From: Natranaerofaba carboxydovora
GTDB taxonomy: Bacteria > Bacillota > Natranaerobiia > Natranaerobiales > Natranaerofabaceae
Assembly (NCBI RefSeq): GCF_022539405.1
Contig: NZ_CP054394.1
Location: forward strand, 2,054,501 to 2,118,500
Length of the DNA: 64,000 bases
Direction of reading: 5' to 3'
Positions 2,908-61,948 of the stretch are shown here, piece after piece. The position numbers and the translations under genes were made by a program. The notes under the pieces are model-generated. The model was not told where the DNA came from. It searched no databases and saw only the letters and a program-made list of their open reading frames with translations. How positions within the stretch are numbered: position 1 is the stretch's first letter; each line of letters opens with the position of its first letter.

Positions 2908-4182
2908 ATGACTTGTTATGTTTGCGGCAAAGAAGACTCAAAGTTATTATCATGTCATATAAAAAATAAAAAGATTTGCCATAGCTGCTGTATAGAGCTT
3001 CAAATAAACAGCGAGCCAAATTTTAAAAAGTGCCTTTCTTGTGTGGGCCTTGTAAAAGAGGAACCACTATTTGTCGATTCTTCTACAATATCTGTCGACA
3101 ACACATCTGTTACTACTTATAGCTATAGGGGTGGCTTCGTTCACAGTAAACACCCTTCTCATATCCCGTTCAAAGCAATAGAACTTATTAACAGAAAAGG
3201 AGCTTATACAGCCAGGGATTATTTAGAACTTGGAGAAATGTATCTGCAGGTAGATAAAATTAAAGAGGCTATCTCGGCTTTTCTAGAATCTTTAACACTT
3301 AAAGAAGATGGATACACTTATCTACAGTTAGCAAAAGTATATCATCTAAACCCGGATTTTGACAGTGCCATCGATTGTTATTACAACAGTATTAGAATGA
3401 TTAATAACAGTGAATTATTATATGGAAAATTAATCGACGAAAAAAAGTTAGAAGAAATGGCCAAAGATAGGAACCCAAAAAAAGATAAAAATCAAAAAGT
3501 GGATTTGGTTAATGAAAATACAAACACCGACGAAAAAAGAATTAGAGAAAAGTTAAAAAAAGAATTACAGAAGTTAGAGAGTGAAGCATATAGAGATCTG
3601 GGCATTATTTACAGGTTACATGACAAACCAGAACAAGCTATTCTTTATCTAAAACGAGCCAAAAAATTAAACTCAGCCTGTAATTTGACTCTATTAGAAC
3701 TGGCTTTTACAAATTATCTCCTTGAAAAATATGAAAAAGTTATAGAACACACAGAATGGCTAATAAAGAAAAATTCATTTGTCATAAAAAACGTAAAAAT
3801 CTCATGCTACCATAGCTTATTAAATGAATACAAAGGTTTGGAAGAAGGTCCTCAAAGCTCAGAAAAAGCCTTCAGTGAGTTAATGTCAGAAGACTATAAA
3901 GGTTATTATGATATCATACTAAGCCTAGCATTATCTTTACATGCCCTTACAAACTTGAAATCATCTGAAGAGATGGAAACAACAAATGAAGCAAAGATAA
4001 ATGAAGCATATGAATCGCTTAATATAGCTTCAGTTATATGCCCTAATTACAAACAGATTATTTTTGCAAAAAAAGATCAAAATGAAGTCCTAGAAGATAG
4101 TGCAATTGAGCTAATAATAAGAGATCTCAACTTTTTGAAGAAAAGAGAGTACACATTTAGGAGAAGTTTGGTAAGGACATGA
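2908..4182 (+). CDS. TPR protein with Cys-rich N-terminal zinc-finger-like segment
   Basis: 424 residues. The first 50 residues carry CYVCGK, CHSCC and CLSC, a likely zinc-binding module. Residues from about 90 to the end are helical and contain TPR-like repeats, for example ARDYLELGEMYLQ and AYRDLGIIYRLHDKPEQAILYLKRA. A highly charged low-complexity linker lies around residues 175-215. No signal peptide or membrane segment is seen, so it is probably a cytoplasmic scaffold. The Shine-Dalgarno AAAGGA lies 12 bases before the ATG, a little far. It stands alone and ends at a shared hairpin terminator. No specific function is recognised. Confidence 0.75.
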   Translation: MTCYVCGKEDSKLLSCHIKNKKICHSCCIELQINSEPNFKKCLSCVGLVKEEPLFVDSSTISVDNTSVTTYSYRGGFVHSKHPSHIPFKAIELINRKGAYTARDYLELGEMYLQVDKIKEAISAFLESLTLKEDGYTYLQLAKVYHLNPDFDSAIDCYYNSIRMINNSELLYGKLIDEKKLEEMAKDRNPKKDKNQKVDLVNENTNTDEKRIREKLKKELQKLESEAYRDLGIIYRLHDKPEQAILYLKRAKKLNSACNLTLLELAFTNYLLEKYEKVIEHTEWLIKKNSFVIKNVKISCYHSLLNEYKGLEEGPQSSEKAFSELMSEDYKGYYDIILSLALSLHALTNLKSSEEMETTNEAKINEAYESLNIASVICPNYKQIIFAKKDQNEVLEDSAIELIIRDLNFLKKREYTFRRSLVRT

Positions 4183-5583: not shown

Positions 5584-8202
5584 CTATATTTTCATTAATT
5601 TAATAAATTCCTCGACCAAATCAGGGTCAAACTGACCACCAGAACAGCGTTTTATTTCCTCTAACGCTTCTTTTTTTGATTCAGGAGATTTGTAAGCTCT
5701 TCCGTTAGTTATAACATCATAAGTATCTATAATTGCTATCACACGTGCAAGGTATGGTATTTCTTTTTCTTTCAATCCTCTGGGGTATCCCTTACCATCA
5801 AAGCGTTCATGATGGGACAAAATTTCCTCAGCTATGTGTATAAGGCTATTAGATGATTGTGCAATTCTATATCCCCTTAGTGGATGCTCTTTTATTATTT
5901 GCCATTCCTCTTCTGTTAATTTTCCAGGTTTTTTTAGGATGTCTTCTGAGATAGCAACCTTACCTATGTCATGCATAGCGGCCAATAGTGATAATTTATT
6001 CATTTCCGTATCCGACAAACCAAGTACCTTGCCAAAGTCCAAACCAATATTTTTCATCCTCAAGGCATGTTCTTCAGTTTCATCACTTTTTTCTTTTAAT
6101 ATTCCTGATAGAGCCCAAATAACATCGCTTCTTGCACTTTCTGTTTCCATAAGCTTGTTTTTATACAAATCATCTTCTGTTTGTCTTAATATATCTTTTA
6201 AATTTTCTTCAGAATCTATCTTTGTAGCTATTCCAAAAGCAATCTTAACCGGCAGTTTAGTATTAATATTTATGTTCTTACATTCTTTTTCTACTGTAGA
6301 TATAATTTTTTCTGCTTTATTATAATCAGCACCCGGCATCAAAACTACAAATTCATCACTACCCCAGCGCCCAATAACATACTTTTCTCCACACACCCTT
6401 TTTAAGGTTTTACCAACCTCAATCAACAGCTCATCCCCTGTTTCATAACTATAATTTTCATTTATTAATCTAAGACCATTTATGTCTATCATAACGATAC
6501 TCACTGGAAGATCTCTTTCTTTCTCATAACGCCTTATTTCTTCTTCCATATAAGCTCTATTGTAGAGACCGGTCAAGCTATCATGCAAACTCATATGTCT
6601 TAACTTCTCTTCACGTTCTTTTCTTTCTGTGATATCCCTGACTAAGGCAAGCATATAATAATCTTCACCAATGATGACTTTATTAGTAGTAACCTCTACC
6701 GGGCAAAGCGAACCATCTTTGTGCTTATGTTTCGTTTCAAGGGTTAGAGGCTTGTCTTCAGCTTTCATTTCTGACCACCTATTTATTATAATTTCTGGGG
6801 TGTTTTCTTCACCATGAGGGTGTAAATCAAACACGCGCATTTTTAAAAGTTCCTCTTCTGTATAACCGGTTACTTTAACCGTCTTGTTATTTACTTCTAA
6901 AATATTTCCCTGCAAATCATGTAAAAATAACATTTCTGAAGACTGGTTTACCAAAGCTCGGTATTTTTCTTCTCTTTTTCTTAGCAGTTCTTGTTTTTCG
7001 TACTTTTCTGTTACATCTGCAAAAACTAAAACTACTCCTTTTATTTTCCCTTTTTTATCAATTATAGGTGAAGCGCTATCAGCTATTTGATATCTATCTC
7101 CACTAGAAGAAATCAAAGCAGTGTGATTAGCTAGGTCTTTTCTTTTTCCTGTTTTAAGTACAGTATTTACTGGGTTGTTGACAGGTTCATCTGTCTTTGA
7201 ATTTACAATATTAAATACTTCTTTAAGGGGCTTTCCTACAGCTTTATCAAGCGGCCACCCAGTGAGTCGCTCTGCCTGAGGGTTCATAAAGGATATAGCA
7301 CCGTTAGAGTCTGTCGATATCACTCCATCACCTATAGAGCTAAGTGTGATATACAAATTTTCTTTAGTATCAGCTAATTCTTCTTCATTTTCTTTCCTCG
7401 TAATCACATTTGCTAATTGGTTAGCTACCGAACTTAGTAGTTTTTTCTCTTCTTCTAAAAAAGAAGTCTTCCCATCAAATTCAAAATCTTCAGAATACAA
7501 TATCTCTATCTCACAACTTGTCTTATTATTGATATCAGCATTAACTTCAGCTCTTTTAGTAAGTTTTAGTTCACTTTCAAAAGTAATCTCAGAAGTAAAT
7601 ACCTTTCCATTATATTCGATCTTAGAGCAGGCTTTTTCTGGACACTGCCAGTACATAGGAAGCAGATTAGCGGTTTTTTGTAAAATTTCATCGAGTGAGT
7701 AATCTTGTACTATTAATGAGCTAAGTTCATTAATACAGTTAAGCTCTTTTATTCTTTCCCTTAACAAAGATAAGTTTTTTGTTTGTTCTCTTTCTAATAG
7801 CTTTTTCTCTGTTATCTCTTGGTGAGTAACGATCACTTTATTTTTAGATTTGTTATTAACTTTGTAATAAGGGGTTACTCTAGCATTAAACCACCGTTCT
7901 TTAGTTGGAGAATGACATGGATATTCCATCTCAAAATTATCCATGCGACCTTCTATAACTTGTAAAAGCCCTTCATTAAATTTAAAAGCATATTGTTTAT
8001 CATCATAAGCGGCGCTGTTACAAATCTCAATGTAGTTAACACCCTGTTTAACTCTATCTATGTTAGCGTTATTTGCCCTTGCAAAATCTAGCCAAGAATT
8101 ATTAACCTGTTCGATATATCCATCCTCATTTAGCAGGCAAATATTCTCTTCAAAAGCATCGATGATAATACCATATTGATCTAAATGATGACCTGAAAAC
8201 AT
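5584..8202 (-). CDS. Multi-PAS, GGDEF and HD-GYP cyclic-di-GMP signalling protein
   Basis: 872 residues, soluble. Domains in order: PAS (about 1-130), a GAF-like region (140-270), PAS (285-405), PAS (410-530), GGDEF-like (535-700) and HD-GYP (700-870). The GGDEF core reads RWGSDEF instead of GGDEF, so cyclase activity is doubtful. The HD-GYP domain is intact, with HDIGKVA and HHERFDGKGYP, so the protein is most likely a c-di-GMP phosphodiesterase controlled by the PAS sensors. The second PAS region contains a CPEKACS pair that could bind a ligand. It is monocistronic, with no RBS-coupled neighbour. Output processes such as motility, biofilm or sporulation cannot be told from context. Confidence 0.9.
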   Translation of the reverse strand: MFSGHHLDQYGIIIDAFEENICLLNEDGYIEQVNNSWLDFARANNANIDRVKQGVNYIEICNSAAYDDKQYAFKFNEGLLQVIEGRMDNFEMEYPCHSPTKERWFNARVTPYYKVNNKSKNKVIVTHQEITEKKLLEREQTKNLSLLRERIKELNCINELSSLIVQDYSLDEILQKTANLLPMYWQCPEKACSKIEYNGKVFTSEITFESELKLTKRAEVNADINNKTSCEIEILYSEDFEFDGKTSFLEEEKKLLSSVANQLANVITRKENEEELADTKENLYITLSSIGDGVISTDSNGAISFMNPQAERLTGWPLDKAVGKPLKEVFNIVNSKTDEPVNNPVNTVLKTGKRKDLANHTALISSSGDRYQIADSASPIIDKKGKIKGVVLVFADVTEKYEKQELLRKREEKYRALVNQSSEMLFLHDLQGNILEVNNKTVKVTGYTEEELLKMRVFDLHPHGEENTPEIIINRWSEMKAEDKPLTLETKHKHKDGSLCPVEVTTNKVIIGEDYYMLALVRDITERKEREEKLRHMSLHDSLTGLYNRAYMEEEIRRYEKERDLPVSIVMIDINGLRLINENYSYETGDELLIEVGKTLKRVCGEKYVIGRWGSDEFVVLMPGADYNKAEKIISTVEKECKNININTKLPVKIAFGIATKIDSEENLKDILRQTEDDLYKNKLMETESARSDVIWALSGILKEKSDETEEHALRMKNIGLDFGKVLGLSDTEMNKLSLLAAMHDIGKVAISEDILKKPGKLTEEEWQIIKEHPLRGYRIAQSSNSLIHIAEEILSHHERFDGKGYPRGLKEKEIPYLARVIAIIDTYDVITNGRAYKSPESKKEALEEIKRCSGGQFDPDLVEEFIKLMKI

Positions 8203-56231: not shown

Positions 56232-56264
56232 TTAATTTTAGTATATATAGCAATCTGATATAGT

Positions 56265-56537
56265 TTAAAAATGTCTATTTTCTCCAAACATACTTCTTAA
56301 CTTATCTAAAGCCCTCTTGTATCGTGAGCGAAGAGTTGTTTCTTTTTCATCTAACTTTGCACCAATCTCTTCAAAGGTAAGCTCCTCGATAATTTTATAG
56401 TAAATAACCGATCTATCTTTTAAACGCAGCTTATCAATATATTCATTAATCAACTCTTTTTCTTCAATTTTTTCTAAATAATCTTCTGGATATTCTTCTG
56501 GTTTTTTAACCTTCTTATAATTGTAATCTACTTGAAT
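56265..56537 (-). CDS. Sigma-70 region-4-like protein, N-terminally short
   Basis: YYKIIEELTFEEIGAKLDEK and LRSRYKRALDKLRSMF form a sigma region 4 helix-turn-helix that reads -35 elements. The first canonical start (TTG 56453) has no ribosome site; the coding-like frame continues to an ATT at 56537 after an in-frame TAA, about 90 residues in total. Region 2, needed for -10 melting, is absent, so it is either a truncated ECF sigma factor or a stand-alone region 4 regulator. Paired with the DUF4367 gene. Confidence 0.55.
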   Translation of the reverse strand: MQVDYNYKKVKKPEEYPEDYLEKIEEKELINEYIDKLRLKDRSVIYYKIIEELTFEEIGAKLDEKETTLRSRYKRALDKLRSMFGENRHF

Positions 56538-56657
56538 TTACCCTTGCATTTTTTTAAAAAGAAATATAATATAATTATAGAAAATCAACTTAGTTAAGTC
56601 TATTAATACAATATTTCTTTGATATTTGATCTAAAATCGTCTAAAAGTTAATAGTCA

Positions 56658-56828
56658 ACAGTAGGTGCCCCTTTTGGGGGAGAATAGGGAATCAGGTGCA
56701 AGTCCTGAGCGGTCCCGCCACTGTAACCGGGGATGACTCCTGTAATACACCACCCGTGTCAATAAAAATAAGGCACCGGGGAAGGTACAGGATAAGAGGA
56801 TCCGGGAGCCAGGAGACCTGCCTGCTGT
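56658..56828 (+). ncRNA. Cobalamin riboswitch
   Basis: P1 arms ACAGTAGG/CCTGCTGT close the structure. Inside are GGGAATCAGGTGCAAGTCCT, CGGTCCCGCCACTGTAACCG and the B12 box GAGCCAGGAGACCTGCC, all hallmark cobalamin elements. A terminator hairpin follows at 56860, so adenosylcobalamin or a related form should repress the downstream ferredoxin-AFOR operon. The variable part 56731-56775 recurs at 29985. Confidence 0.92.
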
Positions 56829-56859
56829 GGGCGTGTTAGTGATGAGAGATGATGGTAAA

Positions 56860-56893
56860 GTCTCCAACTGTATTTTAGTTGGAGGCTTTTTTT
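56860..56893 (+). terminator. Riboswitch expression-platform terminator
   Basis: CTCCAACT/AGTTGGAG stem with a 7-base loop followed by T7. It lies 34 bases after the riboswitch P1 and 117 bases ahead of the operon. Confidence 0.85.
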
Positions 56894-57009
56894 ATTACAT
56901 TATTTTAATTTAAGATTCTACTGCAAAAAATCATATGAGCAATAAGCAATGAGCAAAGTTTTTTTCTAATTTCAATACATCTTTATAAGAAAACAGGAGG
57001 GATAGAAAA

Positions 57010-57333
57010 ATGAACATTCCAATTAAGATTAACAGTGATAATTGCCGGGGATGTCGTCGCTGTGAGATGGCATGTTCCTGGCAAGAGAATGGTATGATTA
57101 ATCCAAAAAATGCAGGGATTAAAATTCATATCCTTGATGAAGTAGGCAAACATCTCCCAGTCCTAAATCAACAGTGTTACGAAGCTTTTTGCGGCAAAGA
57201 ACCAAAAGAAGCAGCTGGTCAAGGCATTCCTAGCTGTGTCTTTGCCTGTGCATTTGATGCCCTAACCATGGGCGATACGGATGATAACCAAAATGAAAGT
57301 ATAGAAAATGAAGGGGGAATGAATCATGCCTAA
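57010..57333 (+). CDS. Ferredoxin-like electron-transfer subunit for AFOR
   Basis: 107 residues. CRGCRRCEMACSW, a central CYEAFCG and CVFACAFDALTMGD supply cysteines for two or more [4Fe-4S] clusters. Such small subunits are often encoded ahead of AOR-family enzymes as the electron partner. AGGAGG lies about seven bases before ATG, and it overlaps the AFOR gene by eight bases. Expressed under the cobalamin riboswitch. Confidence 0.82.
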   Translation: MNIPIKINSDNCRGCRRCEMACSWQENGMINPKNAGIKIHILDEVGKHLPVLNQQCYEAFCGKEPKEAAGQGIPSCVFACAFDALTMGDTDDNQNESIENEGGMNHA

Positions 57334-59203
57334 TGATGCCTGGGCAGGACAAATTCTATGGGTGGATCTAACAAGCAAAGAAATTACTAAGAAAGATCTT
57401 CCTGAAGAGTTGGCTGCTAATTATCTTGGTCAATCAGGGGTAAATGCTAAGATTTTGTATGACTCGATAAATGAAGACACTCGCCCCTTTGATCCAGAAA
57501 ATCCTTTAATATTTGGAACAGGGCCTTTAACAGGAACACTTGCGCCTTGTTCTGGAAGATATACTGTAACGTCCCTCTCCCCTTTAACTAACTTGTTTGG
57601 CGATGCCAATTCTGGAGGACATTTTGGGCCTGAGCTAAAATATTCAGGGTTTGATCACATAGTTATCACTGGTAGTTCAGAAGAGCCAGTGTATCTATGG
57701 ATAAATGAAGGTGAAGTAAAAATAAAGTCAGCTTCTCATTTGAAGGGACTTGATACATGGAAAACAGAAGATAAGATAAAAGCAGAATTAGGACAAGAGA
57801 CAGCACAGGTTGCTTGTATAGGCCCTGCAGGCGAAAACCTTGTCCGCTTCGCAGCAGTTATTAATAATAAATGTAGGGCTGCAGGAAGGACTGGTATGGG
57901 AGCTGTGATGGGGTCAAAGAATCTAAAAGCTGTAGTTGTTAAGGGTTCGGCAGGTACTACTGTAAAAGAGCCAAGCTCCTTTCTTGGTGCAGTTCGAAAG
58001 AGTGAAAATGACATATTTAATGACCCCTTGTATCCCAATGCTTCTAAATATGGTACAACTGCCATTACAGGGCTTGCCCAACATTTAGGTTTTTTACCCA
58101 CAAGGAACTTTCAGTACTCATCTTTTGAGGGAGCCGATAATCTAAGTGGAGATGTAATCCTAGACAACTATACTATCAGGCATAAAGGTTGTTTTAACTG
58201 TCCAGTAAGCTGCAGTCGCTTTTACAAAGTTGAAGACGGAGAATATTCAGGAACATTCGGTGAAGGGCCAGAATATGAGAGTATATCAGCATTAGGTCCA
58301 AAATGCGGTAACGATAATTTACCTTCAGTGTTAAACGCCAATACTCTCTGTAACAAACTTGGATTAGATACGATCTCCTCGGGTAATATGGTTGCCTGGG
58401 CTATGGAATGTAGAGAAAAGGGGCTTTTGGCTGACAATCTTACAAACCCTGAAGGTGAAGTCCTTGAATGGGGTAATCACCGGGCAATAGTAAAACTTAT
58501 TAAAATGATAGCAAACCGCGAAGGTCTAGGAGATATCCTGGCTGAAGGAGGAGTAAGAGCTAGTGAAAAAATCGGCGGAAAAGACTATTTGGTTCACTCA
58601 AAAGGATTAGATTACCCTGCAGTTGATGTCCGAGGGACAAAAGGCATGGCGCTAAGTTTTGCAGCATCACCCAGGGGCGGTGACCATCTAAAAGGACTTC
58701 CTTTATACGAAGTTGCACCCGATGTTTATAAAGATGACATAAAAGAAGAACTAAATATTGAAATTGGTGATGAGTACTGGAAAGAATACAATACAAAAGC
58801 AGAGCTTATAACCTGGCATGAAAACTGGCACTGTGTGGTTGATTCCCTTGGGCTTTGTAAACTTGAGGGCATAGCCCTAAAGCCGCTAAAACCACGTCAT
58901 TTTGTCAGTCTTTATAAGACTGCGACTGGAATGGATATTACTGAAAAAGAGATGGAACAAATAGGAGAGCGTATCTATAATTTAGAAAAACTTATTAATA
59001 TAAAGGTTGGAGATGTTAAACGAGAAGATGACTTACCACCCAAAAGGCTCTTAGAAGAACCTATTAAGAATGGCTTAAATAAGGGTGAGAAGTTAAAATC
59101 TGAAGACTTCAATAATTTGTTAGATGAATATTATAAGCTAAGAGGATGGGACCTGTCAGGACGCCCACTAAAAGAAACTCTAGAGAAACTAAACTTGGCT
59201 TAG
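57326..59203 (+). CDS. Aldehyde:ferredoxin oxidoreductase family protein (tungsten/molybdenum)
   Basis: 625 residues, normal AFOR length. The N-terminal pterin-binding domain has AGQILWVDLTSKEI and FGDANSGGHFGPELKYSGFD. Fe-S ligands are in CFNCPVSCSRF, with the fourth cysteine in LGLCKLEG. The enzyme type oxidises aldehydes to acids (or carries out related reactions, as in BamB) and reduces ferredoxin with a W- or Mo-pterin. Its substrate is not determinable. A cobalamin riboswitch ahead of such an operon is unexpected. Confidence 0.9.
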   Translation: MPNDAWAGQILWVDLTSKEITKKDLPEELAANYLGQSGVNAKILYDSINEDTRPFDPENPLIFGTGPLTGTLAPCSGRYTVTSLSPLTNLFGDANSGGHFGPELKYSGFDHIVITGSSEEPVYLWINEGEVKIKSASHLKGLDTWKTEDKIKAELGQETAQVACIGPAGENLVRFAAVINNKCRAAGRTGMGAVMGSKNLKAVVVKGSAGTTVKEPSSFLGAVRKSENDIFNDPLYPNASKYGTTAITGLAQHLGFLPTRNFQYSSFEGADNLSGDVILDNYTIRHKGCFNCPVSCSRFYKVEDGEYSGTFGEGPEYESISALGPKCGNDNLPSVLNANTLCNKLGLDTISSGNMVAWAMECREKGLLADNLTNPEGEVLEWGNHRAIVKLIKMIANREGLGDILAEGGVRASEKIGGKDYLVHSKGLDYPAVDVRGTKGMALSFAASPRGGDHLKGLPLYEVAPDVYKDDIKEELNIEIGDEYWKEYNTKAELITWHENWHCVVDSLGLCKLEGIALKPLKPRHFVSLYKTATGMDITEKEMEQIGERIYNLEKLINIKVGDVKREDDLPPKRLLEEPIKNGLNKGEKLKSEDFNNLLDEYYKLRGWDLSGRPLKETLEKLNLA

Positions 59204-60990: not shown

Positions 60991-61187
60991 GATCATCCCT
61001 TCCTTTTACCTCTAACTCTCACATCTATCAAGCCCAGATGGAACACTCACAGTAACATAATACCATAATATCAATACCCTGCCAATTGATAGTTAAGGTG
61101 TTTTAAGAACATTGCTACATTATATTTTTGATGTTAATATTAAGAAACAGATTCTACAAAATACATTACCAAAAAGGAGTAATTAAA

Positions 61188-61948
61188 TTGAATAATATCA
61201 ACCAACTAAAATTATCATCTTTAATATTAAATAAAGCAAAAGAATTTGGTGCTGACATTGTAGGTATTACTAGTGTAGGTGAATTAAAAGACTCTCCTTC
61301 ACATAAGCAAGCTAGTAAAATATCTAGATTAGAAATAGGCAAAAGAGAACAAAACTTAGAACCACTAGAAGTTAAATGGCCTGAAGATGGCAAAAGCGTA
61401 ATTGTATTTGGAATATCCCATCCAGAAACCAAACCCGAACTTGACTGGTGGTATGGAGATCACTCTCCACCGGGTAATCAGAAGTTAATGAAAATAAACA
61501 AAAGATTAGCTGAATGGGTTAATACTAATTTCCCAAAAGTGAACACTTACAAACTTCCATATAGTGTCGAACAAGGGGGTATTTTTTTTAAGGATGCCGC
61601 TGTTAAGGCAGGACTAGGATGCATAGGACGAAGTAATCTTTTGGTTACACCTGAATATGGCCCCAGGGTAAGATTCCGAGCTATGATAGTTAGTGAAGAT
61701 TTAGTTAGTACAGGCCCTATAACTTATAATCCCTGTACAAGCTGTGAAGGGTTATGTATAAAAAGCTGCCCTCAAAAGGCTTTTTACGAAGGCAGTTACG
61801 AGCGCTTTACATGCAATATTGAGATGGAAGAAAACATTAAAACGTCAAATAAAAAAACGAAAAAGATATTTATGAACCAACAGGAGAAGAGCTTCAGCTA
61901 GTTAAGTATTGCCGCAGGTGTGAATTTGCCTGTCCTATCGGCAAATAG
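61188..61948 (+). CDS. Epoxyqueuosine-reductase-like Fe-S protein requiring a -1 frameshift
   Basis: TTG start at 61188 with GGAG eight bases upstream. ADIVGITSVGEL, GLGCIGRSNLLVTPEYGPRV and CTSCEGLCIKSCPQKAF mark a QueG-like protein with ferredoxin clusters. The zero frame stops at 61901 after seven A (61851-61857). Reading back one base there restores IYEPTGEELQLVKYCRRCEF, then ACPIGK, to 61948, the remaining cluster ligands. So it is a programmed slip, a slippage-tolerant run, or a recent mutation. It is shorter than true QueG (about 380 aa). Confidence 0.7.

Follow-up and report, generated by a model that had tools for sequence, protein, structure and literature searches.

The riboswitch-led operon

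The window, a stretch of 64,000 nucleotides of the Natranaerofaba carboxydovora genome, contains a cobalamin riboswitch followed on the same strand by two genes (Table 1). The first encodes a small Fe-S electron-transfer subunit; the second encodes the large subunit of an AFOR, an aldehyde oxidoreductase of the predicted tungsten/molybdenum (W/Mo) type. The two reading frames overlap by 8 bases. The preliminary description had placed a complete riboswitch, with B12 box and terminator, directly ahead of an operon of this kind, and this arrangement is borne out. The riboswitch matches RF00174 at 119.5 bits (gathering score 31.5), and all model positions (1-189) are covered (cmscan); both subunits have family matches, Fer4_6 for the small one and AFOR_N and AFOR_C for the large one. 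Only the start of the aptamer had to be moved: it had been put at 56658, which is 12 bases late.

Table 1. Features of the cobalamin riboswitch-AFOR operon (positions in the window)
Feature	Position	Strand	Basis or remarks
Cobalamin riboswitch aptamer, RF00174 full length	56646-56839	+	cmscan 119.5 bits, E 2.2e-29
B12 box GCCAGGAGACCTGCC	56808-56822	+	sequence; proposed antiterminator arm: GGAGAC at 56812-56817
Intrinsic terminator of the riboswitch	56857-56893	+	14-pair hairpin (56857-56889) and T-run; -18.9 kcal/mol
Shine-Dalgarno AGGAGGG of the Fe-S gene	56995-57001	+	sequence
Fe-S small electron-transfer subunit, 107 aa	57010-57333	+	ORF; Fer4_6 25.9 bits
AFOR large subunit, 625 aa	57326-59203	+	Pfam AFOR_N 280.7 bits, AFOR_C 435.2 bits
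Codons of the clade-specific WHENWH motif, residues 497-502	58814-58831	+	H498, W501 and H502 clade-invariant

The expression platform has both parts of a switch, a terminator and a complementary antiterminator arm. The terminator hairpin starts seventeen bases 3' of the aptamer (terminator scan). GGAGAC in the B12 box and GTCTCC (56860-56865) in the 5' arm of the terminator are exact reverse complements, and their duplex has an energy of -10.8 kcal/mol; GGAGAC is proposed to be a ready antiterminator. Given this complementarity, the terminator could be blocked by a free aptamer but not by an occupied one, which is the usual OFF design. The riboswitch is predicted to be OFF with B12, the terminator being favoured when the aptamer is occupied, and the enzyme would then be made under corrinoid shortage. 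A short B12 gene overlooked between riboswitch and AFOR had been allowed for in the preliminary description; none is present, and the 116 bases from the T-run to the start codon at 57010 hold no plausible gene. The operon is very probably regulated by B12.

On the opposite strand, a sigma-70-like C-terminal fragment (window ~56260-56540, -) has no N-terminal part and sits beside a DUF4367 gene; it looks like a decayed sigma factor. A QueG/reductive-dehalogenase-like gene (window 61182-61901 to ~62000, +) stops early, and its remainder, which includes a second cysteine motif, is in a different frame. The gene at 61182 looks frameshifted.

Cobalamin riboswitches and AFOR genes of the host genome

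The genome consists of a single contig of 3,264,732 bases and has nine cobalamin riboswitches (genome-wide RF00174 search). About eleven further AFOR-like genes are present; by coordinates, there is no cobalamin riboswitch within 15 kb of any of them. The host makes corrin de novo; one of the riboswitches leads its cbi operon, in which CbiM, Q, O, E/T, L, F, G, H, J, X and C-like genes were recognised by eye (CbiJ confirmed).

Two cobalamin riboswitches at other loci have unusual targets. One (L024:2777-2961) lies ahead of a CDP-alcohol phosphatidyltransferase gene (3226-3972), and another (L025:6835-7025) lies ahead of a gene for an LPG_synthase_TM membrane protein (7181-8185). The riboswitch at L028:5127-5317 precedes a NikA/oligopeptide-type ABC transporter operon, which is probably involved in cobalt or corrinoid uptake. 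A further one, L026:8337-8529 (-; genome 20336-20528), scores 125.3 bits and is followed by terminator-like sequence. It has no downstream gene on the same strand and faces the 3' end of a chemotaxis-receptor-like gene on the opposite strand; it is possibly an antisense or orphan riboswitch.

Conservation of the arrangement

The AFOR has seven close relatives at 59-69% identity, and the next ones share only ~45% (phylum-wide protein search); the host order is represented by only three genomes in the comparison set. In the GTDB contig search, an alignment used as the query yielded further clade members; a single-protein query yielded none. The clade as a whole (58-69% identity) spans Bacillota and Thermodesulfobacteriota. 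It includes AFORs of Thermincola, Desulfallas, Natroniella acetigena and sulfidigena, Peptococcaceae and Thermacetogenium, as well as of Syntrophaceae, Desulfatitalea, Desulfonatronospira and Desulfohalobiaceae.

A survey of riboswitches beside AFOR genes, which the preliminary description had proposed, sets this clade apart. A cobalamin riboswitch lies ahead of the operon in 17/17 distinct genomes with an intact 5' side (Rfam scans and whole-genome riboswitch search), and a strong terminator hairpin follows the aptamer at all 17 loci; at 36 other AFOR loci the Rfam scans find none (0/36). Riboswitch matches were mapped to locus coordinates by us and most loci were re-read at the sequence level. 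An eighteenth clade locus (L126) is cut off on its 5' side and stands outside the count. Among the 71 sequences of a maximum-likelihood tree, a branch supported at 100/100 separates the 15 riboswitch-linked AFORs from all others, and the riboswitch-linkage label needs one change on the tree. A distinct AFOR clade thus sits under a cobalamin riboswitch wherever this can be checked.

The riboswitch could in principle be a chance neighbour, or the relic of a lost B12 gene, with no bearing on the AFOR; the L026 riboswitch is an example of one without a downstream gene. We estimate the chance of finding a cobalamin riboswitch just 5' of one given gene at ~0.2% (nine in 3.26 Mb). However, the arrangement recurs in every one of the 17 related genomes, drawn from two phyla and with a terminator in each. 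This rules out chance placement and contradicts a relic, so that this explanation is the least credible of those considered here.

The enzyme subunits

Eight cysteines of the small subunit (C12, C15, C18, C22, C56, C61, C76 and C80) are invariant in nine relatives, and would be enough for two [4Fe-4S] clusters. The nearest solved chains to the large subunit are aldehyde:ferredoxin oxidoreductases (AORs: PfAOR 1aor; 9mqx; the C. autoethanogenum-type 9g7j). Both domains are common to the AORs and the present enzyme, as are the cluster cysteines (C289, C292, C296 and C511) and the equivalents of PfAOR Thr243, Glu313 and His448 (T244, E318 and H454), all of which are invariant in the clade. The metal is predicted to be W or Mo, two possibilities between which the sequence cannot tell.

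The clade differs from these AORs in several respects: it forms a group of its own, it is under riboswitch control, and the two-cluster small subunit is present in every case that was read. PfAOR Tyr427 is replaced by valine or threonine (V433 in the host; among 15 clade members, 14 have V and one has T); this tyrosine is listed as kept in most, not all, aldehyde-oxidising WOR members. The clade also has a WHxxWH motif together with an insert. The three clade-invariant residues of the motif are rare in other AFORs, and the motif (WHENWH in the host) is a possible substrate or metal site. The replacement of Tyr427, the WHxxWH motif and the two-cluster small subunit suggest that the enzyme acts on something other than the usual aldehydes. 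A structure model of the AFOR from 7 sequences (pLDDT 41.5) is too poor to use.

Class II WOR enzymes of the WorLS type (PfASOR, CbGOR; PMC13328260) likewise combine a large subunit with an adjoining gene for an Fe-S small subunit. However, their small subunits have four clusters (PMC13328260), whereas the one described here has eight conserved cysteines (enough for two clusters), which places it outside that group.

An ECF importer and the UbiD/hydantoinase link

In three relatives the operon also encodes components of a vitamin-type ECF importer. In HGW-Firmicutes-14 and Bacillota SKS1, the riboswitch is followed by genes for the ECF ATPase, T and S components and then by the AFOR gene; the Fe-S gene lies between the ECF components and the AFOR in SKS1. 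A Thermincola MAG has the order riboswitch, S component, Fe-S, AFOR, MoaD, and a MoaD-like gene is found 3' of the AFOR in several relatives. The S component has no family match among Pfam, NCBIfam or PDB sequences. In a search with its structure model (pLDDT 79.8), ECF S-components head the fold matches (5edl, TM 0.64) at E above 0.001, modest values that point to an ECF S-component fold. ECF genes under cobalamin riboswitches, with a similar S-component fold, are known from the B12-regulated importers CbrT, BtuM and CblT (per reviews); the present S component differs from these in its lack of a sequence match and in its partners, which are AFOR or UbiD/hydantoinase-like enzymes.

Homologs of the S component are found in 15/398 genomes of the phylum. 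Ten further S loci were read, nine of which are under a cobalamin riboswitch; the tenth is a lone S gene beside a transposase-like ORF. Most of these loci also have a UbiD-family decarboxylase and a hydantoinase/oxoprolinase-like gene pair, often with UbiX (several names were assigned by eye). The riboswitch-led operons at L171-L176 and L178-L180 contain ECF A, T and S, UbiD, hydantoinase-like HyuA/HyuB and UbiX. In the host genome (~1414551-1421376, L030), two adjacent cobalamin riboswitches lead the genes for the importer, UbiD, UbiX and a small LpdD-like protein.

Genomes with the AFOR clade and genomes with the S component co-occur beyond expectation (Fisher p 8.5e-5, uncorrected for kinship). 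Nevertheless, the S component is absent from most AFOR-clade genomes, so import is not general. In the genus g49, one species has the AFOR without the S component; another has the ECF-UbiD-hydantoinase set without the clade AFOR. The idea that AFOR and UbiD/hydantoinase modules strictly exclude each other was considered and rejected, as the host genome and one Thermincola have both the AFOR and UbiD orthologs.

Possible roles of the AFOR

With a cobamide bound to the aptamer, the terminator would form and the operon would be off; with no cobamide, pairing of the B12 box with the terminator arm would let transcription run on into the operon. The two-subunit W/Mo oxidoreductase would then be part of a response to corrinoid shortage. 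The inferred electron route connects the pterin metal site, the [4Fe-4S] cluster of the enzyme, the two-cluster small subunit and ferredoxin. The AFOR may interconvert a small acid and its aldehyde, probably aromatic; the aromatic nature is suggested by a single line of evidence, the partnership with UbiD. In some relatives the co-transcribed ECF importer would bring the substrate in, and the UbiD/UbiX/hydantoinase-like enzymes could supply alternative or added steps. The end purpose may be the supply of a cobamide-related precursor or the bypass of a B12-dependent step. We give this explanation as a whole, an OFF riboswitch governing acid/aldehyde conversion by the AFOR in corrinoid shortage, about an even chance of being right; the substrate and purpose, as proposed, are more tentative.

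The preliminary description had also suggested, as one task of the AFOR, the handling of metabolites from B12-dependent routes, such as aldehydes derived from diols, glycerol or ethanolamine. This is at odds with the predicted OFF platform: the enzyme would be made when such routes lack their cofactor, which disfavours a handler of B12-dependent dehydratase products. No genes of these routes lie beside the AFOR in the stretches of the window and its relatives that were read. A replacement or supply role fits.

One form of replacement would be a B12-independent bypass or electron sink, in which the AFOR reduces an acid to an aldehyde or otherwise takes the place of a B12-dependent step. Corrinoid shortage would stall B12-dependent methyl transfer (in the Wood-Ljungdahl pathway and methyltransferases), and reduced ferredoxin would accumulate. 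Acetogenesis or sulfate reduction is known in the groups to which many clade members belong, and AFORs as a family reduce acids with low-potential electrons, both of which agree with a sink. Isozymes of B12-dependent enzymes are, moreover, a target class of cobalamin riboswitches named in the main text of one large survey (PMC3766115), and the predicted control of the AFOR operon would suit an enzyme of that class. However, a sink leaves the ECF and UbiD/hydantoinase partners unexplained, and no alcohol dehydrogenase adjoins the riboswitch-linked AFOR, unlike two other AFORs of the genome, which have alcohol-dehydrogenase-like neighbours (assigned by eye). We regard a bypass or sink of this kind as unlikely, though worth keeping in mind. 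AFORs also oxidise aldehydes, and the enzyme could scavenge the acetaldehyde formed in anaerobic corrin synthesis, being made together with that pathway at low B12. CbiG does release acetaldehyde (PMC8123684), and the CbiG-like and CbiJ genes of the corrin-making host are themselves under a cobalamin riboswitch. Scavenging is nevertheless improbable: the acetaldehyde flux is tiny, the other AFOR-like genes of the genome are at hand, the AFOR operon lies outside the cbi operon, the tyrosine common in aldehyde-oxidising members is replaced, and the ECF/UbiD links are again left without explanation. A redox enzyme within the cobalamin regulon might instead replace a missing corrin enzyme, notably the cobalt-precorrin-6A reductase CbiJ, which is absent from several anaerobes (PMC545781). 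However, CbiJ is present in the host, where this role is excluded, and in 11/17 other clade genomes (12/18 in all), so that such a replacement is very improbable.

Conversion of a small acid or aldehyde, imported or internal, in connection with the supply or use of cobamides is cautiously favoured, as no other reading explains the importer and the UbiD/hydantoinase partners. A general role in lower-ligand supply is weakened: tandem ThiC-like (bzaAB-type) genes are present in about half of the genomes tested, and the need for an outside lower-ligand precursor is therefore not general. It is conceivable, though rather doubtful, that the AFOR clade represents one version, and the riboswitch-led ECF-UbiD-hydantoinase module another, of an undescribed route by which an aromatic or heteroaromatic compound is imported or synthesised and then converted to a product required in cobamide scarcity.

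Relation to known regulons and significance

The riboswitch has the sequence, fold and terminator-type expression platform of RF00174. The main text of the survey cited above lists as target classes of cobalamin riboswitches B12 synthesis, B12 transport, cobalt transport and isozymes of B12-dependent enzymes (PMC3766115); a W/Mo oxidoreductase is outside these main-text classes. Our literature search found no paper that joins a cobalamin riboswitch with an AFOR; older regulon surveys were outside this search, and prior mention is possible there. A survey of 2003 reportedly lists B12-regulated oxidoreductases of unknown role. The cobalamin riboswitch itself is known; the AFOR as its target is apparently new, and we do not claim to be the first to have seen it.

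Moco riboswitches (RF01055) are a more expected means of AFOR control, and two (L059:3851-3964, -; L092:9311-9423, +) are found close to AFOR genes of other clades. As in the present case, a riboswitch for a cofactor lies near an AFOR gene; however, the Moco riboswitch senses the enzyme's own cofactor, whereas cobalamin is not an AFOR cofactor.

A physiological role is known for only five of 92 AFOR clades (PMC13328260). Here the regulation itself gives a clue to the role, as an RNA switch links a whole AFOR clade, present in two phyla, to B12 shortage, and this link makes the role directly testable. The finding also points to a module of ECF, UbiD, UbiX and hydantoinase-like proteins in the B12 regulon of many anaerobes. 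If AFOR and module are two versions of one route, its product would be either a building block of cobamides or a compound that stands in for a B12-dependent product, and B12 metabolism would gain a new branch based on the chemistry of tungsten/molybdenum and prenylated flavin.
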